Positions 2,681-19,544 of a stretch of DNA of 33,412 nucleotides are shown in pieces. How positions within the stretch are numbered: position 1 is the stretch's first letter; every line of letters begins with the position of its first letter. This DNA comes from a virus, in the IMG/VR virus record IMGVR_UViG_3300007631_000004, positions 1-33,412 of that record; one strand, written 5' to 3'. The notes beneath the pieces are model-generated. The model worked only from the letters and a program-made list of their open reading frames with translations. It ran no database searches and was not told the origin of the DNA. The position numbers were made by a program, and so were the translations under genes.

Positions 2681-2705
2681 CCTTTAAGTATAGATGTTGC
2701 CCTGC
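2681..2705 (+). repeat. Intergenic palindrome, left arm only (copy 4)
   Basis: CCTTTAAGTATAGATG then TTGCCCTGC, identical to the commonest left arm. It continues into GGTCGCGGCCGCCG but lacks the TACTTAAAGG arm. Confidence 0.85.
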
Positions 2706-2729
2706 GGTCGCGGCCGCCGAACGCGGCCG

Positions 2730-2789
2730 TCAGGCCAGCGCCATCACAAAGCCCAGTGCGAGCCCGATGGTCAGAAGTAGCGTAACTAT
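2730..2789 (-). pseudogene. Frame for a very hydrophobic 19-residue peptide without a standard start
   Basis: Directly downstream of the 172-aa gene and overlapping its TAG stop, one minus frame reads IVTLLLTIGLALGFVMALA then TGA. This looks like a single membrane segment. No ATG, GTG or TTG opens it after the upstream in-frame stop except near its end. It may be a decayed gene or use an unusual start. Similar tiny hydrophobic frames occur downstream of the genes at 14447 and 19346, which is why I record it. Confidence 0.3.
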
Positions 2790-3304
2790 GCCTTCTCACC
2801 CCCGTACCGGCGCTTGAGGTACTCCTCGATGGTGATGTAGTACCCCTGCTCGATTGCCTCCTCCTGAGTCATGTACCCCGCATGTCCTCCGTTGGTCCGG
2901 CCGTACTTCTTACAGGTGAACCCGATGGCGAAGCTGGCGCTCTCGTGAAACATCGGCTCGCCCGGGCTCATGAACGCCCCACACTCGGGGCAGTTGGGTC
3001 GTGCACCGTCCACGAAGACGCCGTAGTGGCCCGAGCCCGGGAGGTTGTGTCCCGAGAGGTACGCCGTCTCACTGGAGTTGACGAACTCCTTGATGGCGTC
3101 GTCGGTCCAGTACTCTCTGTCCGAGATGACCGTCTCGCCGTCTTCAGCCAGCATGTATACCTCCACTTCGTAGTCCTCGTAGTCCTCGAAGTTGTTGAAC
3201 CGGACGAGTCCCTCGTGACCCTTCTTGTCGGACCGCCAGAGTGCACCCATGCCGGTCGCTCCAGCAGGAGGGTCCACGTCGCCGTCAGGCAGGTCTCGCT
3301 TCAT
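2786..3304 (-). CDS. Hypothetical protein with a zinc-ribbon-like pair, 172 aa
   Basis: Unrecognised. It is strongly acidic with a repetitive run FEDYEDYEVEVYMLAEDGE (about residues 39-57). The second half has NCPECGAFM (about residue 104) and a later single cysteine in FTCKKYG, so a complete four-ligand site is uncertain. It ends in a helical tail rich in Tyr and Glu. It is the last gene of a three-gene operon (3681 to 2786); its ATG overlaps the stop of the 51-aa gene (ATGA). The operon's 3' end is the half-palindrome at 2681-2705. Confidence 0.8.
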   Translation of the reverse strand: MKRDLPDGDVDPPAGATGMGALWRSDKKGHEGLVRFNNFEDYEDYEVEVYMLAEDGETVISDREYWTDDAIKEFVNSSETAYLSGHNLPGSGHYGVFVDGARPNCPECGAFMSPGEPMFHESASFAIGFTCKKYGRTNGGHAGYMTQEEAIEQGYYITIEEYLKRRYGGEKA

Positions 3305-3456
3305 TCTGTGGCCTCCTGCGGCTTCTTCTCGTCCACCTTCTCGACTGTGAGGTTGAACGTGTACACAGTGCCGTTCTCATCTGTACGGTAGATTGTCTCT
3401 GAGTTGTCGGTCGCGGCCATGTACTGGAGCCATACCAGCGTGGGGGAGTCACTCAT
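3301..3456 (-). CDS. Hypothetical protein, 51 aa
   Basis: ATG 3454-3456 to TGA 3301-3303. The product begins MSDSPTLVWLQYMAATD and contains a beta-rich middle (ETIYRTDENGTVYTFNLTV), then a Lys/Glu-rich tail. Its function is unknown. It starts 6 bases after the 72-aa zinc-ribbon gene and overlaps the next gene by 4 bases, a tight operon with likely translational coupling. Confidence 0.8.
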   Translation of the reverse strand: MSDSPTLVWLQYMAATDNSETIYRTDENGTVYTFNLTVEKVDEKKPQEATE

Positions 3457-3462
3457 ACGTAA

Positions 3463-3681
3463 TCACTCCGAGGGGTCTTCTCGCATCGTCTTGGGCGTGT
3501 GACCACACTCGTCACAGCGGTCGGCGCTCACGGGAGAGCCACACTCGGGACAGGCGAAGGTCGACCCGAAGCCCTCCACGAACTCGACGGCCGCCACGGA
3601 GTCGGGCATACGCGCGTCGATGATTCGCTGGTCGGTCGTTCCTTCGGTGCTTGCAAGTCCTTCGGCGTTGGTCTCTGACAT
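3463..3681 (-). CDS. Zinc-ribbon protein, 72 aa
   Basis: The C-terminal half carries CPEC (residues about 44-47) and CDEC (about 56-59), a compact C-x2-C / C-x2-C zinc-ribbon of about 20 residues. The preceding TDQRIIDARMPDSVAAVEFVEGFG resembles GYLRILDARI in the 148-aa protein at 6040-6486, so the two may be distant relatives. It is the first gene of its operon. A Shine-Dalgarno-like GGAGG lies about 10 bases before ATG (TGGAGGCAACAACCTATG), unusual among these mostly leaderless cassettes. Confidence 0.8.
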   Translation of the reverse strand: MSETNAEGLASTEGTTDQRIIDARMPDSVAAVEFVEGFGSTFACPECGSPVSADRCDECGHTPKTMREDPSE

Positions 3682-3699
3682 AGGTTGTTGCCTCCATCC

Positions 3700-3743
3700 T
3701 ACTGTAGAGCCGGGAGGGATATAAAGAGTTGTGAACCAGCAAC
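3700..3743 (-). promoter_or_regulatory. Promoter of the 3681-2786 operon
   Basis: On the minus strand the box CTTTATATCC is followed by CTCCCGGC. Upstream is GTTGCTGGTTCAC, a copy of the conserved upstream motif TTGCCGGTTCAC. The box lies about 45 bases from ATG, leaving a leader of about 15-20 nt. Confidence 0.7.
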
Positions 3744-3760
3744 AAGTTCAGTAACCCCCA

Positions 3761-3785
3761 CCTTTAAGTCAGGTAATTGCCCTGC
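3761..3785 (+). repeat. Intergenic palindrome, left arm plus apex only (copy 5)
   Basis: CCTTTAAGTCAGGTAA then TTGCCCTGC and the apex GGTGCGGCCGC, which runs straight into GAAAAAAG, the oligo-T terminator of the next cassette read on the minus strand. The right arm appears cleanly deleted between the apex and the terminator. Confidence 0.8.
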
Positions 3786-3832
3786 GGTGCGGCCGCGAAA
3801 AAAGTCGTGTCAGTCAGCCAGAAGTCGTTCTC

Positions 3833-4201
3833 TCAGTCGTCCAGCGAGGCGACCGGCGTCACTCCTTCGGGTGACGCAACGGTGCTCGGCCCGTCGACCC
3901 GTAGCCCGCCTTCGATGCTCGATACGTCCGTCTCAGAAAGAGCGTCACGCTCTTCCACCATGCCAAGTGCTTGTTCATCGGTCAGATACTGGGCCTTGTT
4001 GGGGTAAGCGTCGGCCCATTCGCCCGTCTGTGCGTCCTTCTCCGCCAGCAGAACCGCCTCGTAGCCCGAGATGGTCATGGTGTCCAGCACCACCACCTCC
4101 TCGACCGAGGGGTCCGTGTTGACCGCAAATCGGTCGCCGCGAGTGTAGTCAGATGCCTGCGTCTCGTCGTCTCCGTCGTATGCGTCGTTTTCGTGCGTCA
4201 T
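3833..4201 (-). CDS. Acidic hypothetical protein, 122 aa
   Basis: Unrecognised. The first 25 residues are disordered and acidic (MTHENDAYDGDDETQASDY). A compact domain follows at about residues 24-60, with strands RFAVNTDP, EEVVVLDTMTISGYEAVLLAE. Then comes a helical segment KAQYLTDEQALGMVEERDALS and a loose tail. The gene starts 3 bases after the stop of the 53-aa gene, so the two form an operon. The stop is followed by an oligo-T tract (T6). Confidence 0.8.
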   Translation of the reverse strand: MTHENDAYDGDDETQASDYTRGDRFAVNTDPSVEEVVVLDTMTISGYEAVLLAEKDAQTGEWADAYPNKAQYLTDEQALGMVEERDALSETDVSSIEGGLRVDGPSTVASPEGVTPVASLDD

Positions 4202-4204: not shown

Positions 4205-4366
4205 TTAGATGTTGATAGGGTAACCGTGGGGGTTGTCTGCCGATACATCGAGACCGAGTGTGGCGTCAGCAAACGACTCTTCGAGCAACATGGCCGACTT
4301 CATGTCGGCCGTCCGGTGTAGCTCTCGAAGAGTCTCGTTCACCGTGCCACCGTCGTTCCCTTGCAT
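4205..4366 (-). CDS. Hypothetical protein, 53 aa
   Basis: ATG 4364-4366 to TAA 4205-4207. The product begins MQGNDGGTVNETLRELHRTA and is one amphipathic helix (ETLRELHRTADMKSAMLLEESFADA) followed by a Gly/Pro-rich tail. Its function is unknown. It is the first gene of a two-gene operon and has its own box about 35 bases upstream. Confidence 0.75.
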   Translation of the reverse strand: MQGNDGGTVNETLRELHRTADMKSAMLLEESFADATLGLDVSADNPHGYPINI

Positions 4367-4459: not shown

Positions 4460-4484
4460 TCTTTAAGTATAGATGTTGCCCTGC
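4460..4484 (+). repeat. Intergenic palindrome, left arm only (copy 6)
   Basis: TCTTTAAGTATAGATG then TTGCCCTGC, lying 36 bp from a complete copy (7). This is one of two places where a half copy and a full copy are adjacent. Confidence 0.8.
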
Positions 4485-4512: not shown

Positions 4513-4583
4513 ACCCATAGCTTTAAGTAGGGTAGTTGCTCTGCCGAAACCGCAGGGCAGAAAGTACACTTAAAGCTATGGGT
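4513..4583 (+). repeat. Intergenic palindrome, full, with long perfect outer arms (copy 7)
   Basis: The outer arms ACCCATAGCTTTAAGT and ACTTAAAGCTATGGGT are perfectly complementary over 16 bp. The inner arms include GCTCTGC and GCAGGGC. It shows best that the element is a true inverted repeat. Confidence 0.9.
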
Positions 4584-4611: not shown

Positions 4612-5022
4612 CTACGCTTCGGATTTGGGGTCGTTCATGAACACGGCCACCTCGTAGTAGACGTGCTCCTGATTGTTCCGTTGCTTTCTCGACGCGTTCG
4701 GCAAACTCGTCCGGTTCGAGACGACTGTCAACACGCCATCGAACCCTGTCTCCTCTCGAAAGGCCTCGACAGCGACCTTCTCGGCCATGCTCTTACCGAG
4801 ATGCTCGGCGTTGTAATCTCCGACTCGATTCGCCAACCCCATTTCGTCGTAGGCGACCGCTCGATACAGGTCCGTCCCCGTCGCGTATCGAGCCGCCGTG
4901 AACCCGTACTTCTCGTGCGGGGTTAGACTTGTCTTTTCGACTTCTGTCTTTTTGTCGAGACGTTCGTACTCGGTCTCGGTAAGGTCGTCGGGCTCGACGT
5001 GCTCGACGCCGTAATCGCTCAT
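4612..5022 (-). CDS. Hypothetical protein, 136 aa
   Basis: Unrecognised. The N-terminus is acidic and helical (DDLTETEYERLDKKTEVEKT). The centre contains AARYATGTDLYRAVAYDEMGLANRVGDYNAEHLGKSMAEKVAVEAFREETGFDGVLTVVSN, which looks like an alpha/beta domain. The C-terminus is a strand (EHVYYEVAVFMND). Its ATG overlaps the stop of the upstream 155-aa gene (ATGA), so they are coupled. Palindrome copy 7 lies after the stop. Confidence 0.8.
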   Translation of the reverse strand: MSDYGVEHVEPDDLTETEYERLDKKTEVEKTSLTPHEKYGFTAARYATGTDLYRAVAYDEMGLANRVGDYNAEHLGKSMAEKVAVEAFREETGFDGVLTVVSNRTSLPNASRKQRNNQEHVYYEVAVFMNDPKSEA

Positions 5023-5486
5023 TCCTCAGTCACCTCCTCCAGTCGGAAGTTCGACATGTCCAGTCCGTCGACAATTCGTTCGAGACGCTCCTCAGTGTAG
5101 ATGGGGCCACGGTACGGCACGTCGTTCTCGTAGTGGATGTACCACACGCCGTCGGGGGCCTTCTTTTCCGAGACGCCGTTCCGACGCTTCTGTGTATCTT
5201 CGATACGCTCAGCGTCCGCGACGGCTTCTTTGAGGTCTTCGAGATACTCCTCGGCGGCTGAGGTCTCTTTGTAGTCGGGGGCCTCGACCACGCTCGGGTG
5301 AAGCTCTCGGGGATGGTCCGGGTCCAGACCCTCTTCGAGACGCGTGACCGCCATGCTTGCTTGACCGAGTGAGAGGGTCTTAGGGTAGTCGTCCCACTCG
5401 TGGAAGATGGACCGCTTGATACGGTCTACGGTGATGTTACTTCCAGCCAGTTCGACCTTCACTTCGGTGGTGGCGTATGCCGTCAT
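5019..5486 (-). CDS. Hypothetical protein, 155 aa
   Basis: Unrecognised. It opens with a strand-rich TTEVKVELAGSNITVDRIKRSIFHEW. A helical acidic region follows (EEYLEDLKEAVADAERIEDTQKRR), then DGVWYIHYENDVPYRGPIYTEERLERIVDGLDM. It is the first gene of a two-gene operon. The start codon lies in a 6-bp inverted repeat CATACG/CGTATG that overlaps the expected transcript start. Confidence 0.8.
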   Translation of the reverse strand: MTAYATTEVKVELAGSNITVDRIKRSIFHEWDDYPKTLSLGQASMAVTRLEEGLDPDHPRELHPSVVEAPDYKETSAAEEYLEDLKEAVADAERIEDTQKRRNGVSEKKAPDGVWYIHYENDVPYRGPIYTEERLERIVDGLDMSNFRLEEVTEE

Positions 5487-5553: not shown

Positions 5554-5612
5554 CCTTTATGTATAGAAGTTGCCCTGCCGTGCGGCCGCAGTGCAAGACC
5601 TTTACTTAAAGG
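5554..5612 (+). repeat. Intergenic palindrome, full (copy 8)
   Basis: Left arm CCTTTATGTATAGAAG then TTGCCCTGC; right arm GCAGTGCAAGACC then TTTACTTAAAGG. The apex is CGTGCGGCC. Confidence 0.9.
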
Positions 5613-5749: not shown

Positions 5750-6037
5750 TCAGATATGCATCGGTCGGTCAGTGGGTTCGAGGTCACCGATTTCGTCCTT
5801 GAGGTCCTCCTCGGTGAGTGAGAGGGTGGTGATTAGCTCTCCGTCCCGACCGAAGTGCTTGACGTTATAACCGTCGTCGCGCATGAACTCGTCGGGATGT
5901 TCGTCCACGCAGAGGTACTCGACTTTGACGTAGCTCAGGACACGCTTTGTCTCCTGAAGCGCCTCGTCGTACTCGTCCACGTAGAGGTTCATCACCCGGT
6001 CGACGTAGTACCAGCCGAGTTCGAAGCTCTCAGGCAT
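5750..6037 (-). CDS. Hypothetical protein, 95 aa
   Basis: Unrecognised. I take ATG 6035-6037 (MPESFELGWYYV), two bases after the upstream stop, rather than the in-frame GTG 12 bases earlier. The sequence is beta-rich and aromatic at the start (GWYYVDRVMNLYVDEYDEA), then ETKRVLSYVKVEYLCVDEHPDEF and an acidic C-terminal part. It is the middle gene of a three-gene operon. Confidence 0.8.
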   Translation of the reverse strand: MPESFELGWYYVDRVMNLYVDEYDEALQETKRVLSYVKVEYLCVDEHPDEFMRDDGYNVKHFGRDGELITTLSLTEEDLKDEIGDLEPTDRPMHI

Positions 6038-6039
6038 TG

Positions 6040-6486
6040 TTACCCCCACTCCTCCGAGTCGTGAACCGTCTCACACGACGGACAGAACGTCTTCTCGTAG
6101 CCGAACTCGAAGCCGTTGGCGGAGTACTTGTACCGAGTCCGTTCGGAGTGACAGTCCGCCTCAGGGCACTTCTCGGGATACTCCACCTCGTACCCGGAGA
6201 TATGGTCGTCCGACCGCTTGGCACCGTGGCGGGGCTCCCCTCGCGTGATACGGGCGTCGAGTATCCGAAGGTAGCCGACCGTCACCGGGAACCCGATACT
6301 GGCCTCCTCCAGCACACGCACGGCGTTGACGCTGGGCAGGTCGGTCACCTCGCCGTGACGGAACTCCTCGAAGGCGTCGGCAATCTCCTCGGGCTCCGGG
6401 CCGTTGATGGCGGGAATCGAACGTCGCTCGGGACGGCGGTTGTGCATCGGTGCGGCGTCAGCGTCGTGGTGTCGGTCTCGGGTCAT
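6040..6486 (-). CDS. Zinc-binding hypothetical protein, 148 aa
   Basis: The C-terminal 50 residues contain KCPEADCHS and FCPSCETVHDSEEW, two cysteine pairs compatible with one zinc-ribbon (C-x4-C / C-x2-C). The first 40 residues are disordered and rich in His and Arg (TRDRHHDADAAPMHNRRPERRS), unusual among these acidic proteins. The centre (VTVGYLRILDARITRG) resembles part of the 72-aa zinc-ribbon protein at 3463. It is the first gene of a three-gene operon. Confidence 0.8.
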   Translation of the reverse strand: MTRDRHHDADAAPMHNRRPERRSIPAINGPEPEEIADAFEEFRHGEVTDLPSVNAVRVLEEASIGFPVTVGYLRILDARITRGEPRHGAKRSDDHISGYEVEYPEKCPEADCHSERTRYKYSANGFEFGYEKTFCPSCETVHDSEEWG

Positions 6487-6567: not shown

Positions 6568-6627
6568 CCTTTAAGTAAGGTAATTGCCCTGCGGTCCGCA
6601 CCGCAGTGCGAAAACCATACTTAAAGG
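6568..6627 (+). repeat. Intergenic palindrome, full (copy 9)
   Basis: Left arm CCTTTAAGTAAGGTAA then TTGCCCTGC; right arm GCAGTGCGAAAACC then ATACTTAAAGG. The apex CGGTCCGCACCG is a GC hairpin. Confidence 0.9.
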
Positions 6628-6786: not shown

Positions 6787-7323
6787 TTACTCCTCCGTGT
6801 ACTTGTCGAGGGCTCCTTCAAGGTCACCCTCATAGTCCCACGTCGCTTCGGTCCACGCGTCTTCGCCCTCTTCGAAGGCGTAGCCACGCGTCTCACCGCT
6901 TCGGGTTTCCCACTCCGGTTCGGGGAAATCTCGGGACACCTTAACCGACCACTCGGTGTCGTCGCGTGAGTGAGGCACAGTGACCTCGTAGATGTACTCC
7001 TCGTCGCCGTGGATGTTATCAGCGGGGTTCTCGACGCCGTGACCACCGAGGAAATACGCACGGTCGTAGTTCTCCATGTCGAAGGGGTCCTCGTCGTCTT
7101 CAAGCTCGCCAGCTTTCCACGACATGGAGCCGAGCTTACGCAGGAACATGAACTGAGCGGCCGCGTAGTTGGGACCGCGGACCCAGCCCTGCTCTTCGAG
7201 AACTTCTCGCAGTTCGGCCAGTTCGGGGATGATGCTGTCGGGGTAGCCGTCGGAGTGGTTGTAAATCTGTGCGACAGTGCCGCGGTCCGGGTGAACGAAT
7301 CGGAGTTGGGTTCGGGTACTCAT
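6787..7323 (-). CDS. Conserved haloarchaeal/haloviral-type protein, 178 aa
   Basis: The frame is open much further upstream, but that part runs through the palindrome and promoter. ATG 7321-7323 (MSTRTQLRFVHPDRG) is the start at the right distance from the box. The sequence TQLRFVHPDRGTVAQIYNHSDGYPDSIIPELAELREVLE and a later FLGGHGVENPADNIHGDEEYIYEV look like a family I have seen in haloarchaeal plasmids and viruses. It carries no named function. Conserved His, Asp and Gly in GHG and IHGDEEY suggest a structured, possibly metal-binding domain. It is a single-gene cassette. Confidence 0.8.
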   Translation of the reverse strand: MSTRTQLRFVHPDRGTVAQIYNHSDGYPDSIIPELAELREVLEEQGWVRGPNYAAAQFMFLRKLGSMSWKAGELEDDEDPFDMENYDRAYFLGGHGVENPADNIHGDEEYIYEVTVPHSRDDTEWSVKVSRDFPEPEWETRSGETRGYAFEEGEDAWTEATWDYEGDLEGALDKYTEE

Positions 7324-7403: not shown

Positions 7404-7461
7404 CCTTTAAGTATAGATGTTGCTCTGCGGTCCGCCGCAGTGCAGAAACCCCACTTAAAGG
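7404..7461 (+). repeat. Intergenic palindrome, full (copy 10)
   Basis: Left arm CCTTTAAGTATAGATG then TTGCTCTGC; right arm GCAGTGCAGAAACC then CCACTTAAAGG. The apex is CGGTCCGCCG, a stem closed by a TCCG (UNCG-type) tetraloop in RNA form. Confidence 0.9.
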
Positions 7462-7489: not shown

Positions 7490-8236
7490 TTACTCAAACA
7501 GCATATTCAGTTCCGGCTCGCTCATGAGCGCCCCGTCAAACCACGCCTCATGATGAGCTACCTGCGTCTCCACGTCGAGTCGGTTGGCGGTATCGGGGTC
7601 CATATTCGTTCGATTGAACCGCTGATAGTCGAATAACACCCACTGAAGGTGGTACGGGTCTAACTCCACCTCAAGCACCGGAAACAGGTCACACACGTCG
7701 GTGCACAGACTCTCATACCTATCTACCACGACGGTGGTCGGTTGGCTATCTATCCCCATAATCCGACACACGTTCGCGTCAAGGCACATTTTCTCGGTGA
7801 AACCGAGGTTGGCCAGCATGAAGGGAACTTTCACTGTACCCACGAACTTGAGACGGTCTATCGCCGTTTTGTGCATGGTATCAAGGCCTCTCTCATTGTA
7901 GTCGGTAACGAGCGTTTCCCAAATGTCGGGTTCTTGAAGGCACTGAGACAGGTACTTTTTCTTTTGACCGTTGTAGTTGACACGCTCAAGGGCCCGCTCA
8001 AGGCCGTCACCACTGAGTATGCGACGGAAAGCCTCCTCGTGGATATGCAGGGGCGTCTGTACGCTGATAACGGAGTTGACGTATGAGAGCTTGAGGTAGT
8101 CCTTCTTAGTCTCCCGGTCGGCTTTTTTGAACCGCTCACGGATAGTGTCGAGTTGCCCCCAAATACGCTGATAGGTCGCTTCATGAGTCCGGTAGTGTGC
8201 TACAATCTCTGACCGCGTGGCGTCACTTAGGTCCAT
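7490..8236 (-). CDS. Putative HhH-GPD-type DNA glycosylase/lyase, 248 aa
   Basis: Probably a base-excision-type glycosylase fold. Residues 52-70 (VNSVISVQTPLHIHEEAF) resemble the opening 'ILSQQT' helix of HhH-GPD enzymes. Residues about 127-145 (DRLKFVGTVKVPFMLANLG) have the helix-hairpin-helix pattern, with K136 where OGG1/AGOG-like enzymes carry the catalytic lysine. LDAN (D153) follows where these enzymes have the catalytic aspartate, as in LDTH. The protein is longer than most neighbours and a single-gene cassette. In a virus it might remove damaged or modified bases, or act on host DNA. The assignment rests on motifs I see, not a search; a different helical protein is possible. Confidence 0.55.
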   Translation of the reverse strand: MDLSDATRSEIVAHYRTHEATYQRIWGQLDTIRERFKKADRETKKDYLKLSYVNSVISVQTPLHIHEEAFRRILSGDGLERALERVNYNGQKKKYLSQCLQEPDIWETLVTDYNERGLDTMHKTAIDRLKFVGTVKVPFMLANLGFTEKMCLDANVCRIMGIDSQPTTVVVDRYESLCTDVCDLFPVLEVELDPYHLQWVLFDYQRFNRTNMDPDTANRLDVETQVAHHEAWFDGALMSEPELNMLFE

Positions 8237-8306: not shown

Positions 8307-8366
8307 CCTTTAAGTATAGATGTTGCCCTGCCGGCCGGCCGCAGAGCAAGACCCTTACTTAAAGAT
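8307..8366 (+). repeat. Intergenic palindrome, full (copy 11)
   Basis: Left arm CCTTTAAGTATAGATG then TTGCCCTGC; right arm GCAGAGCAAGACCC then TTACTTAAAGAT. Here GCCCTGC / GCAGAGC gives an almost perfect inner stem. Confidence 0.9.
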
Positions 8367-8582: not shown

Positions 8583-8603
8583 AGTAGGGGACTTTCCCCT
8601 ACT
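8583..8603 (-). promoter_or_regulatory. Hairpin overlapping a stop codon, before a GTG start
   Basis: The arms AGTAGGGG and CCCCTACT are a perfect 8-bp inverted repeat with a 5-base loop. The hairpin includes the TAG stop of the 118-aa gene and ends 2 bases before the GTG of the 65-aa gene. It could couple or attenuate translation, or terminate part of the transcripts. Confidence 0.5.
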
Positions 8604-8955
8604 TGTACACGACACGCCCTGTATCGTTGACCTTGTACCCGTCCTTGTCATGCTCAGCCCGGGCGTGTGCGTTGATGACCGTGAGGCCAAAGGCCTCCAT
8701 CATCAGGTTCGTGTTGGACCCATCAGCGTGTTTCATAGCGTTGTACAGGTCCCCGTCCCACATGTAGTTCCCGAACGAGCCGAACGACGTTCGACCGTAT
8801 TCGAGGACCGCCTCGGCGTTCTCACGGACGCTGTTACGCTCTCCCTCTGCGTCGTGCATTGCCAGCCGAACGAACGGGAACGAGGCACCCTGTTCGAGGA
8901 GTTCGGCAATCTGGTCTTCGGTGAGTTCATCGTATCGGCTTTCGGTTTCGCTCAT
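8599..8955 (-). CDS. Hypothetical protein, 118 aa
   Basis: Unrecognised. A helical N-terminus (YDELTEDQIAELLEQGASFPFVRLAMHDAEGE) is followed by a central region with Tyr/Phe/Gly (YGRTSFGSFGNYMWDGDLYNAMKHADGSNTNLMMEAFGLTVINAHARAEHD). Its size and composition do not match a family I know. It is the first gene of a two-gene operon with a consensus promoter. Confidence 0.8.
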   Translation of the reverse strand: MSETESRYDELTEDQIAELLEQGASFPFVRLAMHDAEGERNSVRENAEAVLEYGRTSFGSFGNYMWDGDLYNAMKHADGSNTNLMMEAFGLTVINAHARAEHDKDGYKVNDTGRVVYK

Positions 8956-9035: not shown

Positions 9036-9094
9036 CCTTTAAGTATAGATGTTGCCCTGCGGTGCGGCCGCAGTGCAGAAACATCACTTAAAGG
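9036..9094 (+). repeat. Intergenic palindrome, full (copy 12)
   Basis: Left arm CCTTTAAGTATAGATG then TTGCCCTGC; right arm GCAGTGCAGAAAC then ATCACTTAAAGG. The GATGTT of the left arm is matched by AACATC in the right arm. Confidence 0.9.
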
Positions 9095-12628: not shown

Positions 12629-12688
12629 CCTTTAAGGGTAGTTATTGCCCTGCGGTGCCGACAGCAGAGCAGAAACTACCCTTAAAGG
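12629..12688 (+). repeat. Intergenic palindrome, full (copy 18)
   Basis: Left arm CCTTTAAGGGTAGTTA then TTGCCCTGC; right arm GCAGAGCAGAAAC then TACCCTTAAAGG. The usual AAGTA has changed to AAGGGTA on the left and TACCCTT on the right, a compensated change. Confidence 0.9.
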
Positions 12689-13165: not shown

Positions 13166-13224
13166 CCTTTAAGTATAGTAGTTGCCCTGCCGTGCGGCCG
13201 CAGTGCAGAAACATCACTTAAAGG
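13166..13224 (+). repeat. Intergenic palindrome, full (copy 19)
   Basis: Left arm CCTTTAAGTATAGTAG then TTGCCCTGC; right arm GCAGTGCAGAAAC then ATCACTTAAAGG. The apex is CGTGCGGCC. Confidence 0.9.
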
Positions 13225-13251: not shown

Positions 13252-13635
13252 TTACTCCCCGTGGAGATGCGATACTTTACTGGTGTCGTACTCACCCTGA
13301 AGTATTGCGTCGTATGCACCCGCCTGAAAAGCGGAGTCTAAGTCCTCCGCAACGGCCGCTTCGCGCTGGAGTCTCTCGTACTCCTCTTGGGGCATGTGTG
13401 CCTCATAGAAGTCATCGATGGCCCACCAAAGGCGTTTGTTGTCCTCGCCGTTGATAAACCACTGAGCTTCGTTCATGAGGAAGTCAACAGCCATATCCCG
13501 CCCAGCTTCGCTTTGAATCGAACGGGCCTCATCGATAATATCAGCGTGTGAGTGTTCGAACGACTGATACCCGAACGCGTATGCGGACTTGATAGCTTCA
13601 CTCCACGACGTTCCGAGGTTAGGTGTTTGGCTCAT
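13252..13635 (-). CDS. Hypothetical protein, 127 aa (diverged member of family A)
   Basis: It shares the skeleton of its two neighbours. The N-terminus has SAYAFGYQSFEH in place of EAYEMGYDKFTG, and the C-terminus has AFQAGAYDAILQGEYD in place of MWERGAYDAGEGREKY. The middle differs (ARSIQSEAGRDMAVDFLMNEAQWFINGEDNKRLWWAIDDFYEAHMPQEEYERLQRE). This suggests an old duplication followed by replacement or rapid change of the core. Function unknown. Confidence 0.8.
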   Translation of the reverse strand: MSQTPNLGTSWSEAIKSAYAFGYQSFEHSHADIIDEARSIQSEAGRDMAVDFLMNEAQWFINGEDNKRLWWAIDDFYEAHMPQEEYERLQREAAVAEDLDSAFQAGAYDAILQGEYDTSKVSHLHGE

Positions 13636-13704: not shown

Positions 13705-13763
13705 CCTTTAAGTATAGATGTTGCCCTGCGGTGCGACAGCAGAGCAAGACCTTTACTTAAAGA
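13705..13763 (+). repeat. Intergenic palindrome, full (copy 20)
   Basis: Left arm CCTTTAAGTATAGATG then TTGCCCTGC; right arm GCAGAGCAAGACC then TTTACTTAAAGA. The apex is GGTGCGACA. Confidence 0.9.
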
Positions 13764-13795: not shown

Positions 13796-14173
13796 TTAGA
13801 AGTCCAGCGTCGCGTACCGCTCCTCTCCATTTGCCGCGTCATAAGCGCCTCGTTCCCACGCTTCGAGTAGTTCGTCCAGCAAGTCACTTGCCATCGTCAC
13901 GACGCACTTAGCGGGTACGTCGTCTTCCTGATGGGCTTCGAGGATTGCCACGTCGCGGTCACCCGTCCACGTTCCGTATCCCCCATCCTCATGGCCTGCG
14001 AGCGCCCGGAGCGACGGGAGGACGTTGTTTGCGTAATCGGCGCTATCGCGGAACCCTTCCAAATCGAACGTTTCAGGGTCGTCTACCGGGACCTCGGAAA
14101 ACTTGTCGTAGCCCGTGTCATACGCCTGTTCCTTCGCGTCGTCAATCTTGACGACAGGGATTATTTGCGCCAT
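13796..14173 (-). CDS. Hypothetical protein, 125 aa (paralog family A)
   Basis: Close paralog of the 12720-13097 product, with FRDSADYANNVLPSLRALAGH identical. I start at ATG 14171-14173 (MAQIIPVV) because it aligns with its paralog. An in-frame ATG 6 bases earlier (MEMAQ) is equally reachable from the promoter and may be the real leaderless start. The C-terminus EAWERGAYDAANGEERYATLDF is conserved. Function unknown. Confidence 0.85.
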   Translation of the reverse strand: MAQIIPVVKIDDAKEQAYDTGYDKFSEVPVDDPETFDLEGFRDSADYANNVLPSLRALAGHEDGGYGTWTGDRDVAILEAHQEDDVPAKCVVTMASDLLDELLEAWERGAYDAANGEERYATLDF

Positions 14174-14186
14174 CTCCATTTAGTTC

Positions 14187-14243: not shown

Positions 14244-14303
14244 CCTTTAAGTATAGATGTTGCCCTGCGGTGCCAACAGCAGAGCAAGACCCTTACTTAA
14301 AGA
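14244..14303 (+). repeat. Intergenic palindrome, full (copy 21)
   Basis: Left arm CCTTTAAGTATAGATG then TTGCCCTGC; right arm GCAGAGCAAGACCC then TTACTTAAAGAT. A CACTGTGTTTAC motif lies just beyond it (14316-14327). Confidence 0.9.
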
Positions 14304-14446: not shown

Positions 14447-14788
14447 TTAGGCGAGCTTAGGCGGCGTGAATCGGTGTCGCTTCGGGGCGGCGTCGGTGTC
14501 CTCACCTTCTATATGCTCATCGACGTACACGTCTGAGCGAAGGCCTAACTGTCCGTACTGTTGCTTGGTTGAGATACTTCCGGACTGCCGACGGGTGTTA
14601 CTTCGGTTGGTCCAGCCCATGTATGCGGTGATATGTCCCGACGGGCTTCGGTACGCGTACACAGCGTGGCCGTAGCCGACTAAGACGGTCCCGCCGTCGT
14701 CGGTCTCATGAATCTTTACGTTCGAAGCGGTACCGGTCTTGTCACCGTCGCGGAACTTGCGGCCGAGGGTGCTTTGGGAGTGTGCCAT
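14447..14788 (-). CDS. Basic beta-rich hypothetical protein, 113 aa
   Basis: Unrecognised. Strands GTASNVKIHETDDGGTVLVGYGHAVYAYRSPSGHITAYMGW cover residues about 18-58. A polar SNTRRQSGSISTKQQYGQLGLRSDVYVDEH then follows, with a basic tail (KRHRFTPPKLA). Unlike most neighbours it is not acidic, so it may bind nucleic acid. It is the first gene of a two-gene cassette with the 29-aa membrane peptide. Confidence 0.8.
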   Translation of the reverse strand: MAHSQSTLGRKFRDGDKTGTASNVKIHETDDGGTVLVGYGHAVYAYRSPSGHITAYMGWTNRSNTRRQSGSISTKQQYGQLGLRSDVYVDEHIEGEDTDAAPKRHRFTPPKLA

Positions 14789-14856: not shown

Positions 14857-14915
14857 CCTTTAAGTATAGTAGTTGCCCTGCCGTGCGGCCGCAGTGCAGA
14901 AACTACCCTTAAAGG
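14857..14915 (+). repeat. Intergenic palindrome, full (copy 22)
   Basis: Left arm CCTTTAAGTATAGTAG then TTGCCCTGC; right arm GCAGTGCAGAAAC then TACCCTTAAAGG. Left TAGTAGTT pairs with right AACTA. Confidence 0.9.
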
Positions 14916-14945: not shown

Positions 14946-15320
14946 TTACTGGGGTCGAACGTCGTAGGTGTAGGTCAGCTTACTGTTGTACGCGTTGAGT
15001 CCCCGGGGGTAGCAGTACGCTTTGTCCGCCGTGTTGGCCCACGTCGGGCAGTCTGCGAGCCAGACGGTGACCTTTGGATTCTCCAGCGGCCGGGCCCGAA
15101 CGTCTATTTCTCGGACGTTCTCCGGCGCGAGGACCTCCTCAACCGTCTCAGACGCGTCTATGCCCATCTTCTCGGCGTCTTTTCGGTTGGCTTCCAGTGA
15201 CTCCGCAACTTCCGACAGAGCGGCGTCAACGAAGCCCTGAAGCCCGCTGTGGTTGGCTTCCATGCCGACAGGTTGTGAGATATTGTACGTCGCGCCGTTG
15301 GCCTGAATCTGGTCTGCCAT
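14946..15320 (-). CDS. Hypothetical protein, 124 aa
   Basis: Unrecognised. It has a beta start (QIQANGATYNISQPV), a long helix (GFVDAALSEVAESLEANRKDAEKMGIDASETVEEVLAPENVREIDVR), then strands NPKVTVWLADCPTWANTADKAYCYPRGLNAYNSKLTYTYDV. Two cysteines could form a disulphide. The stop is followed within 15 bases by a long oligo-T tract (T11). Confidence 0.8.
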   Translation of the reverse strand: MADQIQANGATYNISQPVGMEANHSGLQGFVDAALSEVAESLEANRKDAEKMGIDASETVEEVLAPENVREIDVRARPLENPKVTVWLADCPTWANTADKAYCYPRGLNAYNSKLTYTYDVRPQ

Positions 15321-15380: not shown

Positions 15381-15439
15381 CCTTTAAGTATAGTAGTTGC
15401 CCTGCCGTGCGGCCGCAGTGCGAAAGGTATACTTAAAGG
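15381..15439 (+). repeat. Intergenic palindrome, full (copy 23)
   Basis: Left arm CCTTTAAGTATAGTAG then TTGCCCTGC; right arm GCAGTGCGAAAGGT then ATACTTAAAGG. The flank AGGGGGTATC precedes ten A (oligo-T terminator of the next gene on the minus strand). Confidence 0.9.
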
Positions 15440-15470: not shown

Positions 15471-15788
15471 TCAGTTCTGGTGAATCTCGATGTGGGGCAC
15501 GGTGTCGCCGCCGGCCATGCTCTTGATACTCACTTGACCGATTTTCAGGTCGTCCTGTTCGTCTATCCACTGGAGCAGGTCCGTCCGCATACGGCTTGAG
15601 CGGGCGGTGACCATGACCACACTGGCGCTGACGTTGAGCTTTGCCTTGCCCGTGTTGTAGTCGCCCAGCAGGCCCGTGTTGTCCTTGATGAAGGCCATGC
15701 ACTTCATGATTGAAGCCGGAATTTCGGAGGCCGTGTTGAAGTCATGGTCAAACGCTTCGAGCACTTCCGCACCTTTGTGTTCTGCCAT
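15471..15788 (-). CDS. Hypothetical protein, 105 aa
   Basis: Unrecognised. It has a helical N-terminus (AEVLEAFDHDFNTASEIPASIMKCMAFIKDN), then strands KAKLNVSASVVMVTARSS, a helix TDLLQWIDEQDDL, and strands KIGQVSIKSMAGGDTVPHIEIHQ. The alpha/beta order resembles a small ferredoxin-like domain, which is only a topology guess. Strong oligo-T tract after the stop. Confidence 0.8.
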   Translation of the reverse strand: MAEHKGAEVLEAFDHDFNTASEIPASIMKCMAFIKDNTGLLGDYNTGKAKLNVSASVVMVTARSSRMRTDLLQWIDEQDDLKIGQVSIKSMAGGDTVPHIEIHQN

Positions 15789-15847: not shown

Positions 15848-15906
15848 CCTTTAAGTATAGTTCTTGCCCTGCGGTGCGGCCGCAGTGCGAAAGGTATACT
15901 TAAAGG
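15848..15906 (+). repeat. Intergenic palindrome, full (copy 24)
   Basis: Left arm CCTTTAAGTATAGTTC then TTGCCCTGC; right arm GCAGTGCGAAAGGT then ATACTTAAAGG. The outer flanks ACCCCC and GGGGGT extend the pairing. Confidence 0.9.
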
Positions 15907-15936: not shown

Positions 15937-16179
15937 CTATCGGGTGCTCTGAACGGCCGCGCTGACACTCTCAGCGCGTTCGAAATCGTCCTCATCCGCG
16001 AGGCTGACGCCGTAGGCGCGGTCGCACTCGGGGCACGTGTGGCGCTTCTGGAGAGCCTTCGCGCTACTGAGCTTCTTGATGACGGTCCGGTCGCACTCGG
16101 GACAGCGTGCGGCGGCCGCGGGTTCGGTCGTTCGGTCGAGGTTGCTACTTCGGACTTCGCTGAGGTCTTGCACTGCCAT
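15937..16179 (-). CDS. Zinc-ribbon protein, 80 aa
   Basis: It contains RCPECDRT (residues about 25-32) and TCPECDRAYG (about 48-57), a C-x2-C / C-x2-C zinc-ribbon with a basic helix between (VIKKLSSAKALQKRH). Single-domain proteins of this form often bind nucleic acid or basal transcription factors. It opens MAVQDLSEV, like the gene at 17238 (MAVQDQTA). Single-gene cassette. Confidence 0.8.
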   Translation of the reverse strand: MAVQDLSEVRSSNLDRTTEPAAAARCPECDRTVIKKLSSAKALQKRHTCPECDRAYGVSLADEDDFERAESVSAAVQSTR

Positions 16180-16238: not shown

Positions 16239-16298
16239 CCTTTAAGTATAGTTCTTGCCCTGCGGACCGCCCCGCAGTGCAGAAACCCTACATAAAGG
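16239..16298 (+). repeat. Intergenic palindrome, full (copy 25)
   Basis: Left arm CCTTTAAGTATAGTTC then TTGCCCTGC; right arm GCAGTGCAGAAACC then CTACATAAAGG. The apex is CGGACCGCCCCG. The right arm has one substitution (CATAAAGG). Confidence 0.9.
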
Positions 16299-16328: not shown

Positions 16329-16586
16329 CTACTGGTCGTGGCCCCAGCCCGCGAGCAAGGCCCCGCACTCGCGGCACTCAATGGACTGTGAGTCCACCTC
16401 AGTGTGCGAGTGATAGATGCCCCGGTCGTAGCCACAGCGGTTACACAGCCCCTCATTGGTGATGTTACGGGACTTGTCAGTGTAGCCACTAAGAGCTACA
16501 ATACGCTCTATCGTACCCATACCCTCGTGCAGGTCGGACTTGTCAAATGGCAGTACTCCGTCGTCTGCGGTGGTCTGGCGCGTCAT
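16329..16586 (-). CDS. Zinc-binding protein, 85 aa
   Basis: Start ATG 16584-16586 (MTRQTTADDGVLPFD), at leaderless distance. It contains LCNRCGYDRG (about residue 47) and ECRECGALL (about 70), a C-x2-C / C-x2-C zinc-ribbon with a His pair (YHSHTEVD) between. The first half is helical (MGTIERIVALSGYTDKSRN). Function unknown. Single-gene cassette. Confidence 0.8.
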   Translation of the reverse strand: MTRQTTADDGVLPFDKSDLHEGMGTIERIVALSGYTDKSRNITNEGLCNRCGYDRGIYHSHTEVDSQSIECRECGALLAGWGHDQ

Positions 16587-16651: not shown

Positions 16652-16712
16652 CCTTTAAGTATGGTTGTTGCCCTGCGGACCGCCCCGCAGTGTAGAAACC
16701 ATACTTAAAGAT
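16652..16712 (+). repeat. Intergenic palindrome, full (copy 26)
   Basis: Left arm CCTTTAAGTATGGTTG then TTGCCCTGC; right arm GCAGTGTAGAAACC then ATACTTAAAGAT. Left TATGGTT is matched by right AACCATA, a clear covariation. Confidence 0.9.
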
Positions 16713-16740: not shown

Positions 16741-17031
16741 TTATCTGCTGAGAACGAGGTTCATGTAGCCACCGTCACCTTCAGTCTCTTTGACAAGAGT
16801 GATGGTTTCATTGTGCTCCCCGATTGAGAAGTTTCCTGCAATCGCCATGCCGTTGACGTTCAGCGCCGTTGCGTGAAAGGTTCGGTGTTCTTGATTCTCT
16901 GCCCCAATTGCGGTTATCTCGTACCCGCCGGACTCAGTATGCGTCTGACTGTGTTCAATGTCTGGCTGACGTTCGACATTGACGTTCATCGCTTCGAAGC
17001 TAACAGCGGGCTCGGGTTCTTGGGATGCCAT
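16741..17031 (-). CDS. Beta-rich hypothetical protein, 96 aa
   Basis: Unrecognised. Residues 9-20 (VSFEAMNVNVER) and 33-95 alternate strands and loops (GYEITAIGAENQEHRTFHATALNVNGMAIAGNFSIGEHNETITLV...GGYMNLVLSR). It may be a distant paralog of the protein at 4-252, which shares the LNxNGMxxA block. Single-gene cassette. Confidence 0.8.
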   Translation of the reverse strand: MASQEPEPAVSFEAMNVNVERQPDIEHSQTHTESGGYEITAIGAENQEHRTFHATALNVNGMAIAGNFSIGEHNETITLVKETEGDGGYMNLVLSR

Positions 17032-17099: not shown

Positions 17100-17159
17100 T
17101 CTTTAAGTATAGTAGTTGCCCTGCGGTGCCGACAGCAGAGTGAAAACCTTACTTAAAGG
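17100..17159 (+). repeat. Intergenic palindrome, full (copy 27)
   Basis: Left arm TCTTTAAGTATAGTAG then TTGCCCTGC; right arm GCAGAGTGAAAACC then TTACTTAAAGG. The apex is GGTGCCGACA. Confidence 0.9.
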
Positions 17160-17237: not shown

Positions 17238-17498
17238 TTAGTTGTCCTCCGGTTGAAGGTAGACGCTTCGGTTGAGGACCGACCTGATACCCCAGCCGAA
17301 CGGCTTCAGTTCGCTATGGAAGAGCGTGCGGGGCTCTTCCACCTTGACGCCGACGTTGCCCGACTCGTACTTCTTCACCGTCGCCGTGTCGTCTAAGCTC
17401 GCGGCGACGCGTGACGCCGGAACGGTATAGCTGTCGTCGCTGTCGGTGGTGGTCGTGGTTGGTGCGTCCGTCGTAGCCGTCTGGTCTTGCACTGCCAT
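17238..17498 (-). CDS. Hypothetical protein with a Thr-rich linker, 86 aa
   Basis: It begins MAVQDQTATTDAPTTTTTDSDDS, a low-complexity Thr/Asp linker. A compact beta-rich domain follows (YTVPASRVAASLDDTATVKKYESGNVGVKVEEPRTLFHSELKPFGWGIRSVLNRSVYLQPED). Function unknown. The 5' coding end is shared with the zinc-ribbon gene at 15937. Followed by a DDDGP micropeptide. Confidence 0.8.
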   Translation of the reverse strand: MAVQDQTATTDAPTTTTTDSDDSYTVPASRVAASLDDTATVKKYESGNVGVKVEEPRTLFHSELKPFGWGIRSVLNRSVYLQPEDN

Positions 17499-17557: not shown

Positions 17558-17615
17558 CCTTTAAGTATAGTTGTTGCCCTGCCTCAGCCACGCAGAGCAA
17601 TTACCTTACTTAAGG
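17558..17615 (+). repeat. Intergenic palindrome, full (copy 28)
   Basis: Left arm CCTTTAAGTATAGTTG then TTGCCCTGC; right arm GCAGAGCAATTACC then TTACTTAAGG. The right arm is one A shorter. The apex is CTCAGCCAC. Confidence 0.85.
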
Positions 17616-17651: not shown

Positions 17652-17676
17652 CCTTTAAGTATGGTTATTGCCCTGC
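17652..17676 (+). repeat. Intergenic palindrome, left arm only (copy 29), abutting tRNA-like gene
   Basis: CCTTTAAGTATGGTTA then TTGCCCTGC, running directly into AAAAAG, the oligo-T that follows the 3' end of the tRNA-like gene. Confidence 0.85.
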
Positions 17677-17814: not shown

Positions 17815-17940
17815 TTAGAGCTTCTCTATGCCGTCCTTAGTCGGGTCCACGTGACGGTGACAGACCGTAAGCGGCTCGTCGCTGTGGTCGGTTGGTTCGG
17901 CGTACTTTGCGTCATCGTAACAGCCGGGTGCTTGGCACAT
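17815..17940 (-). CDS. Small Cys/His protein, 41 aa
   Basis: ATG 17938-17940 to TAA 17815-17817. The product begins MCQAPGCYDDAKYAEPTDHS and contains C2, C7, C27 and H28/H30 (VCHRHVDP), compatible with a single zinc site C-x4-C / C-x-H-type. It ends DPTKDGIEKL. It is the only ORF in its cassette and is followed by the tRNA-like gene, which may be co-transcribed. Confidence 0.7.
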   Translation of the reverse strand: MCQAPGCYDDAKYAEPTDHSDEPLTVCHRHVDPTKDGIEKL

Positions 17941-18006: not shown

Positions 18007-18065
18007 CCTTTAAGTATAGTTGTTGCCCTGCCTCAGCCACGCAGAGCAAAACCCTTACTTAAAGG
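18007..18065 (+). repeat. Intergenic palindrome, full (copy 30)
   Basis: Left arm CCTTTAAGTATAGTTG then TTGCCCTGC; right arm GCAGAGCAAAACCC then TTACTTAAAGG. The apex CTCAGCCAC is as in copy 28. Confidence 0.9.
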
Positions 18066-18095: not shown

Positions 18096-18120
18096 CCTTT
18101 AAGTATAGTTGTTGCCCTGC
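18096..18120 (+). repeat. Intergenic palindrome, left arm only (copy 31)
   Basis: CCTTTAAGTATAGTTG then TTGCCCTGC, 31 bp from the end of full copy 30. No ORF lies between the two copies, as if a cassette had been lost. Confidence 0.85.
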
Positions 18121-18174: not shown

Positions 18175-18312
18175 TCAGGCCACCTCCGCGGTGTCCCAGT
18201 TGTGCCGCTTGACGCGGGCTATGTCCGCGGGTGCACCGCAACTTTCGCACTCACTCGAAACGTGGTCCCAGTTCATCTCGCACCGTGCACAGTAGCGCGT
18301 GGCTCGTATCAT
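18175..18312 (-). CDS. Zinc-ribbon protein, 45 aa
   Basis: ATG 18310-18312 to TGA 18175-18177. The product begins MIRATRYCARCEMNWDHVSS and contains CARC (residues 8-11) and CESC (about 22-25), a minimal zinc-ribbon. A basic segment follows (ADIARVKRHNWDT). Function unknown. It is followed by a DDDGP micropeptide. Confidence 0.75.
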   Translation of the reverse strand: MIRATRYCARCEMNWDHVSSECESCGAPADIARVKRHNWDTAEVA

Positions 18313-18321
18313 GCTACACTC

Positions 18322-18373: not shown

Positions 18374-18432
18374 CCTTTAAGTATAGTTGTTGCCCTGCGG
18401 GGCGACAGCAGAGCGGAAACCCTACTTAAAGG
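18374..18432 (+). repeat. Intergenic palindrome, full (copy 32)
   Basis: Left arm CCTTTAAGTATAGTTG then TTGCCCTGC; right arm GCAGAGCGGAAACC then CTACTTAAAGG. The apex is GGGGCGACA. Confidence 0.9.
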
Positions 18433-18461: not shown

Positions 18462-18623
18462 TCAGATGAGGCCCGCCGAGCGCAGGGGTGAGGTGCACCC
18501 ACACTCCCCGTGCTCGTCCAAGTCGTCCTCGCACCTGTGGCCGTGGGGGCAGATGAGGGTGCCCATGCCGTCGGTCGTCCAGTCGGTGCCTTCGAGGAAC
18601 TGCTGTTTCATAGCGTCTGTCAT
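18462..18623 (-). CDS. Cys/His-rich small protein, 53 aa
   Basis: ATG 18621-18623 to TGA 18462-18464. The product begins MTDAMKQQFLEGTDWTTDGM and contains CPHGHRC (residues about 25-31) and HGECGC (about 38-43), enough ligands for one zinc site, though the spacing is not a standard ribbon. Function unknown. Single-gene cassette. Confidence 0.75.
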   Translation of the reverse strand: MTDAMKQQFLEGTDWTTDGMGTLICPHGHRCEDDLDEHGECGCTSPLRSAGLI

Positions 18624-18629
18624 GCTACA

Positions 18630-18660: not shown

Positions 18661-18684
18661 CTTCGGCATAGGGCCGAACCCCCA

Positions 18685-18743
18685 CCTTTAAGTATAGTTG
18701 TTGCCCTGCGGGGCGACAGCAGAGCGGAAACTCTACTTAAAGG
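18685..18743 (+). repeat. Intergenic palindrome, full (copy 33)
   Basis: Left arm CCTTTAAGTATAGTTG then TTGCCCTGC; right arm GCAGAGCGGAAAC then TCTACTTAAAGG. It is nearly identical to copy 32 including flanks, as expected from a recent duplication or gene conversion. Confidence 0.9.
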
Positions 18744-18776
18744 TAGGGGGTGTCAAAAAGAAAACCGCCGGCTTGC

Positions 18777-19007
18777 TCAGTAGTCTGCGCTACGCGGGTG
18801 GCCCTCGCTGAGCCTCTCGCGCCGCGTGCGTGGTTCCGTGTTGCGGTAGGCCTCGCGTCGACGCTCGTCGGACAGGTCGTCCACGGGCGTGTAGGCGGCC
18901 CCGTAGTTGACCTCGTGGCCCATCGCCTCTTCGTGGGCGCTGGCGTCGTCTGCGTCGGTGAAGCTGGCGGTGCAGTGTCGGCAGTGTGAGTCAACCTTCT
19001 GTGCCAT
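18777..19007 (-). CDS. C2H2 zinc-finger protein, 76 aa
   Basis: Start ATG 19005-19007 (MAQKVDSHCRHC). Residues 9-31 form a classical C2H2 finger: C9-x2-C12, F16, H25-x5-H31 (CRHCTASFTDADDASAHEEA then MGHE). The C-terminal half is Arg/Glu-rich and helical (LSDERRREAYRNTEPRTRRERLSEG). It may bind DNA or RNA. Similar single-finger proteins are common in archaeal viruses. Single-gene cassette. Confidence 0.8.
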   Translation of the reverse strand: MAQKVDSHCRHCTASFTDADDASAHEEAMGHEVNYGAAYTPVDDLSDERRREAYRNTEPRTRRERLSEGHPRSADY

Positions 19008-19017
19008 TGCAGGTAAA

Positions 19018-19060
19018 CCCACGAGCGGAAGGGTACTAAAGAGTTGGGTACCGGCAACCC
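19018..19060 (-). promoter_or_regulatory. Promoter of the zinc-finger gene
   Basis: GGTTGCCGGTACCC, then the box CTTTAGTACC and CTTCCGCTCG. Confidence 0.7.
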
Positions 19061-19076
19061 AAGTGGGTACCCCCTA

Positions 19077-19101
19077 CTTTTAAGTATGGTTATTGCCCTG
19101 C
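19077..19101 (+). repeat. Intergenic palindrome, left arm only (copy 34)
   Basis: ACTTTTAAGTATGGTTA then TTGCCCTGC, followed by a GC-rich tract and a CACTGTGTTTAC motif (19119-19130). Confidence 0.8.
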
Positions 19102-19288
19102 GGTGGCCCGGCGGCGGTCACTGTGTTTACCCTCTTGGGGAAGGTCGACGGCCGTCGTGGGGAAAGCCAACCCAACCCTCGGGGATGACAGGATGGCCCC
19201 AACCCTTACCTTTAAGTATAGTTCTTGCCCTGCGCTCGCCGGCCGACAGTCAGCCGGCCTCGGGGAAGGCGGTAAACACAGTGGTGCC
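19102..19288. other. Cassette-sized gap without a visible gene
   Basis: This stretch contains half-palindrome copy 35 and an inverted pair of CACTGTGTTTAC (19119-19130) and GTAAACACAGTG (19272-19283). I see no ORF with a start, stop and promoter. It looks like the remains of one or two cassettes whose genes were lost. Confidence 0.45.
19209..19233 (+). repeat. Intergenic palindrome, left arm only (copy 35)
   Basis: CCTTTAAGTATAGTTC then TTGCCCTGC, continuing into GCTCGCCGGCCGAC with no right arm. Confidence 0.85.
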
Positions 19289-19345
19289 CTACAGGCTGGC
19301 GAGGATGCCTGCTATGAGCGTCAGTGTGAGGATGAAGGTAATCAC
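19289..19345 (-). CDS. Tiny hydrophobic peptide, 18 aa
   Basis: GTG 19343-19345 overlaps the upstream stop (TGAGTG); it ends at TAG 19289-19291. The translation VITFILTLTLIAGILASL (first residue read as Met) is entirely hydrophobic, a single membrane segment. Comparable frames follow the genes at 14447 and 2786. Its small size makes it uncertain. Confidence 0.45.
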   Translation of the reverse strand: MITFILTLTLIAGILASL

Positions 19346-19429
19346 TCAAGCCACCTCCCGAAACGTCTCCAGCGTCGTCTCAGCGCCTATGTCTGTGGCT
19401 GTTCGACTACGTCGATAGCTCTCTGTCAT
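19346..19429 (-). CDS. Small protein, 27 aa
   Basis: ATG 19427-19429 to TGA 19346-19348. The product begins MTESYRRSRTATDIGAETTL and ends ETFREVA. It has a basic start and an acidic helical end. A box at leaderless distance supports the start. Function unknown. Its stop overlaps the GTG of the hydrophobic peptide. Confidence 0.55.
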   Translation of the reverse strand: MTESYRRSRTATDIGAETTLETFREVA

Positions 19430-19437
19430 GCGTTCGT

Positions 19438-19480
19438 CTCTTGGGGGCGGTTGGGTATCAAAAGTGGGGAAGGGGCAAGC
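19438..19480 (-). promoter_or_regulatory. Promoter of the 27-aa gene
   Basis: The box CTTTTGATACCC, then AACCGCCCCC; TTGCCCCTTCCCC lies upstream as a weak form of the conserved motif. Confidence 0.55.
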
Positions 19481-19496
19481 TAGTCGCCTACCCCTT

Positions 19497-19544
19497 CCTT
19501 TAAGTATAGTTGTTGCCCTGCACAACGAACAGCAGGGCAAGACC
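19497..19544 (+). repeat. Intergenic palindrome with decayed right outer arm (copy 36)
   Basis: Left arm CCTTTAAGTATAGTTG then TTGCCCTGC. The inner right arm GCAGGGCAA is a perfect complement, but the outer CTTAAAGG is replaced by CCAAATATAAAAAAC. It is the rightmost copy. Confidence 0.8.

Follow-up and report, generated by a model that had tools for sequence, protein, structure and literature searches.

In the genome of Halogranum tailed virus 1 (HGTV-1), most open reading frames (ORFs) on one side are preceded by a motif made up of a TATA-like region and an inverted repeat (Sencilo et al. 2013, as summarized in a 2014 review, PMC3950731). According to that summary, the HGTV-1 motif was likened to the promoter early stem-loops (PeSLs) of phage T4, and roles in both regulation and shuffling were suggested for it; this version of the array is therefore already known. 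PeSLs of T4-type phages are themselves credited with modular shuffling in the sections of two articles that deal with them (PMC3950731, PMC4503421). In HF2 (Haloferacalesvirus), class I intergenic repeats act as promoters in reporter assays (PMC8707807). In viruses of Sulfolobales such as SIRV2, many small early genes, partly with anti-defence functions, are under one regulatory sequence, and a winged-helix protein may repress these shared early promoters (PMC11065993). The present analysis concerns an array of tiny genes separated by palindromes, located at positions 2681–19544 of a 33.4-kb viral contig (record IMGVR_UViG_3300007631_000004), which as a whole is referred to as the window. Its palindromes are best read, from their position and conservation, as first of all regulatory and as part of the promoter of the next gene.

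By its gene content, the window belongs to a tailed virus of haloarchaea that is a relative of HGTV-1. Its right side carries genes for terminase, portal, an HNH endonuclease and the major capsid protein (MCP), and HGTV-1 is the closest named relative of the virion genes (52% amino acid (aa) identity for terminase, 61% for MCP). The left two thirds consist of small ORFs running leftward, including the array of about 30 tiny genes. All window genes are predicted ORFs, and the window is a fragment of its genome. Almost no array protein matched an entry of PHROGs, Pfam or PADLOC.

Palindrome anatomy

The half-site CTTTAAGTATRGNTNTTGCCCTGC has 48 matches with at most 3 mismatches in the whole window and none in 100 dinucleotide shuffles. 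The repeated palindrome array that the original prediction had noticed at 2681–19544 is thus real (0 matches expected). This region holds 33 copies of the half-site on the plus strand, 25 of which are paired with an inverted copy across a centre of 7–10 nt, the arms being complementary at 16–21 of their 24 positions. At 19498 the second arm is degenerate, and the remaining seven sites are solitary half-sites (2682, 3762, 4461, 17653, 18097, 19078, and 19210). Three further half-sites lie to the left of 2681, at 814, 1377, and 2092. Some sites are hence half-sites and not palindromes, and those at 814 and 1377 precede plus-strand genes.

Read leftward, the elements follow each other in the order stop codon, oligo-T, distal arm, centre, proximal arm, spacer, TATA-like core promoter, and ATG. 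A run of at least four T residues is found within 28 nt before the distal arm in 22 of the 25 palindromes, against a background of 6% of 28-mers. The core promoter, placed after the proximal arm, lies about 33 nt before the ATG, so that the array genes are probably leaderless. The distance from the proximal arm to the ATG is 60–82 bp in the main series, with a median of 69. Identity among proximal arms reaches 0.97–0.99 in their outer and inner thirds, against 0.28–0.39 for the core promoters. Most cassettes contain a single gene; there are two at 6569, 5555, and 4461 and three at 3762, and the cassette between 12029 and 11572 also contains a tRNA-Ser. The reported succession of promoter, one to three tiny ORFs, oligo-T and palindrome holds, as does the claim that each cassette has its own promoter, with a predicted TATA-like core promoter before almost every gene. 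Bacterial sigma-70 promoters showed no excess in the window.

Arrays in related viruses

A leftward array of tiny genes upstream of the terminase genes is found in HGTV-1 and in at least five relatives; apart from HGTV-1 and HF2, the relatives are metagenomic contigs. In the complete genome of HGTV-1, about forty leftward tiny genes adjoin the terminase genes. The window and HGTV-1 have in common leftward tiny genes beside the terminase, a TATA-like element with an inverted repeat before most of them, and related virion genes. The syntenic HGTV-1 array contains 28 palindrome cores, unlike those of the window in sequence and typically 93–98 bp from the ATG; their distal arms read CGAAACCTTTTTATAG, the canonical haloarchaeal combination of B recognition element (BRE) and TATA box. 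In contig G007, the half-sites of the window are turned inside out and also stand before genes on the opposite strand. Contig L056 carries 21 copies of TTTCACCATGGTGAAA, which abut the TATA box, the palindrome of L055 is TGCACCATGGTGCA, and L039 and G008 each have their own palindrome sequence. The position of the palindrome and its partner elements are conserved among relatives, whereas the sequence of the palindrome differs. The order of the virion genes is kept across all of them.

A scan of viral contigs with the half-site pattern returned two contigs, with one match each and without window-related proteins; G007 was found later. A search for a provirus in genome contigs with a terminase profile gave one 6.9-kb contig, which lies in a bacterial metagenome-assembled genome and is probably misbinned. 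The HGTV-1 (L026) genes at 36428, 45430, and 45761 have an annotated GTG start within a palindrome, and their true starts are probably downstream; mutual matches of the HGTV-1 genes H45678, H45137, and H35604 were set aside as probably artefactual, produced by annotated GTG starts that fall within the palindrome. By eye, one gene of the G007 array (L023, 2592–2945) resembles toxins of the PemK/MazF type, and a tandem 11-bp repeat, ACAGCAGCAGC, adjoins this array (L022, 17819–17961).

Gene turnover, permutation and mosaic blocks

HGTV-1 and G008 have 14 array genes in common, all on the sense strand. Only 8 are collinear and 3 of 13 adjacencies are kept (Kendall tau 0.74). Five of these genes (a, c, d, e, and f) are flanked by palindromes in both genomes, and their order has nevertheless changed. 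Core promoters of orthologues are more alike than those of other genes (p 0.0002), which suggests that the core promoter tends to travel with its gene. A corresponding test of whether the palindromes follow their gene was discarded, as it is confounded by genes without a palindrome there. The window and HGTV-1 have three clear array genes in common, in the same order, with mostly different neighbours.

A further case concerns the window and L056. Gene 18462–18623 has 80% nucleotide identity with its L056 counterpart, whereas the terminase small subunits of the two viruses are only 45% identical. The homology extends from the start codon to about 20 nt past the stop codon, and upstream of it each virus has its own palindrome. 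Contigs L039 and L040 are 99.87% identical over 5.2 kb apart from one replaced stretch of small genes, which has one edge within a gene and the other at a palindrome, near the ends of both contigs.

Within the window, similarity between cassettes is limited to a segment that begins at the oligo-T and ends near the start codon, over unrelated genes (164 bp at 90%, 150 bp at 89%, and 136 bp at 89%). The site at 15849 is a mosaic: from upstream through the palindrome it is 96% identical to 15382, and from the proximal arm to the ATG it is 96.7% identical to 17559, the join being the centre of the palindrome. Similarities of the promoter-side segments correlate with each other and not with those of the distal half, in a linkage test that is weak because the proximal arm barely varies. 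The ends of upstream genes at first seemed linked to the distal arms, but this was due to wrong segmentation of three sites and disappeared once these were corrected or dropped.

The array is thus modular, as originally described, with independently promoted one-gene units whose content turns over between relatives; the proposed alignment with relatives' arrays also revealed permuted units, as in HGTV-1 and G008. On the expectation that breakpoints would lie inside the palindromes, the evidence is mixed. Exact joins at repeats were seen once in the window, at the centre of 15849, and, less securely, once between contigs, at one edge of the L039/L040 replacement near the contig ends; the other edge of that replacement lies in a gene, and gene 18462–18623 is shared without its palindrome.

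A proposed shared operator and probable homologous recombination

These observations (the anatomy, the fixed spacing, the conserved place of differing palindromes, the turnover and permutation of units, and the mosaicism of blocks) are, in our judgement, quite probably best explained by a virus-specific operator palindrome that forms one switch for the whole array, and by recombination between the repeated blocks that shuffles the units. From them we infer that there is a regulator, that the genes are early, and that the route is homologous recombination. In this account, the tiny genes, each with a promoter of its own, belong to an HGTV-1-like haloarchaeal tailed virus and are probably accessory as well as early. 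Every gene has a predicted leaderless core promoter and, 60–82 bp upstream of the start codon, the virus-specific palindrome, most likely an operator through which one DNA-binding regulator would control all copies jointly. The upstream gene would terminate at the oligo-T just before the palindrome. As the same block of terminator, palindrome and promoter separates every gene, the blocks would act as repeated homology. Homologous recombination or gene conversion between them could homogenize the palindromes within a genome, and single-gene units could thereby drop out, enter or change places without being inverted.

The fixed link to the start codon and the near-invariant arm beside a variable TATA element are as expected of a promoter-bound operator. 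A palindrome sequence that differs between viruses fits an operator co-evolving with its regulator, whereas for a recombination site serving a gene pool one would expect an unchanged sequence. The units were probably shuffled by homologous recombination between the repeated promoter blocks; the retained polarity fits exchange between direct repeats, and genes for RadA and a Holliday junction resolvase are present in HGTV-1. The original idea that the virus swaps early genes by recombination therefore stands for turnover and permutation, with homologous recombination as the inferred route, and is not supported for an enzyme acting on attC-type sites.

Several points weigh against this explanation. 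Promoters, leaderless starts and timing of the window virus were read from sequence only. The candidate regulator, a small DUF7344-like, winged-helix-like protein encoded on the plus strand at the end of the array (1756–2061), matches with an E value of 4.5e-5, below the Pfam cut-off, and none of the relatives searched contains a homologue of it. The linkage test of the palindrome halves has little power. The relatives other than HGTV-1 come from metagenomes, in which repeats are prone to misassembly, and the L039/L040 difference adjoins a contig end. Finally, the arms could be promoters with TATA box and initiator, as in HF2, instead of operators.

This last possibility was developed as an alternative in which the arms themselves, resembling the HF2 class I repeats, provide tandem sense promoters and one antisense promoter, with no operator or viral regulator. 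The arm motif CTTTAAGT is common to the TATA region of the HF2 class I repeats, and the distal arms of HGTV-1, as noted above, are canonical BRE-TATA sequences. However, where a solitary site precedes an array gene, the one arm left is directed away from that gene, half-sites both in the window and in G007 can face either way with respect to the gene, and the palindromes of L056 and L055 are entirely without TATA arms. Conservation moreover extends across nearly the whole 24-nt arm, more than a TATA box needs, and we consider this alternative unlikely.

Dedicated site-specific recombination sites, attC-like or targeted by another recombinase, whose regulatory look would be secondary, are a still less probable explanation, which we would give little credence. 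Permutation of whole one-gene units between HGTV-1 and G008, the join of 15849 at the palindrome centre, and the L039/L040 boundary at a palindrome edge speak for such sites. The enzyme and the expected site architecture were both searched for. Neither strand of the window contains a pair of attC boxes (RYYYAAC/GTTRRRY). The tyrosine recombinase profile PF00589 has no match in G000, G003–G007 or complete HGTV-1, although the HF2 integrase was found as a control, and neither a tyrosine nor a serine recombinase was detected with Pfam in the window, in its relatives or in the complete genome of HGTV-1; the original remark that no integrase gene is visible in the window thus extends to these genomes. 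Furthermore, 7 of the 33 sites in the region are only half-sites, the palindrome sequence differs between related viruses, gene 18462–18623 is common to L056 without its palindrome, and the second L039/L040 boundary falls within a gene. Gene-cassette arrays of integrons are alike in their small genes, single polarity, repeated palindromic boundary and gene turnover. They differ in having an integrase, attC architecture and promoterless cassettes expressed from one promoter, Pc, whereas the window array has a promoter per unit and a palindrome tied to the downstream gene. Judged on these features, integron membership fails, because there are no attC boxes and no recombinase, each gene has a predicted promoter, and a gene has moved without its palindrome; the integron-like, attC-type interpretation is accordingly not supported.

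That the palindromes act in RNA, terminating transcription of the upstream gene or forming hairpins for its processing, is scarcely credible: they do come directly after gene ends and follow an oligo-T, but the T run precedes the hairpin instead of following it, the spacing is fixed to the downstream ATG, sites resembling intrinsic terminators are not enriched in the window (12 found against 18 expected), and an Rfam search gave no match.

Returning to a shared operator with homologous recombination, a bolder version can be tentatively proposed, which we hold to be possible but doubtful. Early-gene cassettes would be a family-wide feature, each virus having swapped the operator palindrome in front of 20–40 single-gene units. 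Gene conversion would keep the copies uniform, and they would fit the virus's own regulator; incoming genes would then join the local switch, and units would be permuted by recombination at the blocks.

Individual cassettes and neighbouring genes

The sites of the array are on the minus strand. At its right end, the palindrome with a degenerate distal arm (19498–19542) lies upstream of a doubtful 27-aa ORF (19346–19429). It is followed leftward by the solitary half-site 19210–19233, upstream of another at 19078–19101, which has a core promoter for gene 18777–19007. Full palindromes then begin, with 18686–18742 before gene 18462–18623 (53 aa), 18375–18431 before gene 18175–18312, and 18008–18064 before gene 17815–17940; the solitary half-site 18097–18120 stands upstream of the last palindrome, just as 17653–17676 stands upstream of 17559–17615, which precedes gene 17238–17498. 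Single genes also follow 17101–17158 (16741–17031), 16653–16710 (16329–16586), and 16240–16297 (15937–16179, zinc-ribbon-like). The mosaic palindrome 15849–15905, with its distal half like 15382 and its proximal half like 17559, precedes gene 15471–15788, and 15382–15438 precedes gene 14946–15320. The next palindromes and genes are 14858–14914 (14447–14788), 14245–14302 (13796–14179), 13706–13762 (13252–13635), and 13167–13223 (12720–13097). Genes 12720–13097 and 13796–14179 are strongly similar paralogues (E 5e-49) at a distance of two cassettes; another gene separates them, and their promoters are dissimilar. The palindrome 12630–12687 is upstream of a short ORF (12486–12560) and a possible gene (12111–12434). 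Gene 11804–11959, behind 12029–12084, is in the same cassette as the tRNA-Ser (CGA) gene 11641–11731, a single tRNA gene within one cassette, where it shares its palindrome promoter with a 51-aa gene.

Further left, 11572–11627 precedes gene 11053–11499 and 10970–11026 precedes gene 10586–10897, which has orthologues in HGTV-1 and G007. The blocks of 10324–10379 (gene 9750–10250) and 9665–9720 (gene 9121–9591) are 90% identical. Palindrome 9037–9093 is followed by gene 8599–8955, with an orthologue in HGTV-1, and 8308–8364 by gene 7490–8236, which is DNA glycosylase-like. The latter has orthologues in HGTV-1 (annotated as endonuclease III), G008 and Haloarcula tailed virus 2; its profile gave a weak match to an N-glycosylase/DNA lyase among structures (E 0.0017), and a contig scan with this gene alone gave no matches. 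After 7405–7460 (gene 6787–7323), two genes each follow 6569–6626 (6040–6486 and 5750–6049) and 5555–5611 (5019–5486 and 4612–5022). Palindrome 4521–4575 is succeeded by the solitary proximal half-site 4461–4484, between it and the core promoter of gene 4205–4366, and by a second gene, 3833–4201. The solitary proximal half-site 3762–3785, with its own core promoter, stands before genes 3463–3681, 3301–3456, and 2786–3304, and the half-site 2682–2705 is without a clear downstream gene.

The leftward array stops within 1–2100, where the AT skew flips and genes 914–1237, 1491–1754, and 1756–2061 are on the plus strand. The first two sit behind solitary half-sites in sense orientation, 814–837 and 1377–1400 (plus strand), respectively. 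The HNH endonuclease gene within the head module (28598–29581) lies in a segment with a low GC content of 0.43–0.44 and a strong GC skew, and has a match with 27% identity at the end of contig G004. It is probably an inserted homing-type gene.

Comparison with known systems

The HGTV-1 motif belongs to the same virus group and is alike in its locus beside the terminase genes and in the order of elements before most tiny genes. It differs in palindrome sequence and in being linked to mostly other genes, and the window adds solitary half-sites and CTTTAAGT arms. In the literature examined, as far as its sections on HGTV-1 go, the dual role of these repeats in regulation and shuffling is a suggestion by analogy with T4. 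The new element is comparative evidence that palindromes are replaced between viruses and that units are permuted. The relatives provide comparative tests, as the palindrome is swapped while its place is kept, and units are permuted while the neighbouring virion genes stay ordered.

Like the window array, PeSLs are composite blocks of promoter and stem-loop repeated between small genes. However, they belong to a bacterial phage, whereas the window has archaeal TATA promoters and an oligo-T before and not after the palindrome. The HF2 class I repeats, from the same order, Thumleimavirales, are repeated intergenic promoters with the CTTTAAGT 8-mer as TATA region and similar spacing, but there are only seven copies, which are non-palindromic and head long operons instead of single tiny genes. 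Finally, in Sulfolobales viruses a near-identical regulatory sequence likewise governs many small genes that are unrelated to each other; these are different viruses, and no shuffling of palindrome cassettes is described there. If the genes of the window array were early and anti-defence, as in Sulfolobales viruses, the palindrome would offer a way of locating such genes in haloarchaeal viruses.

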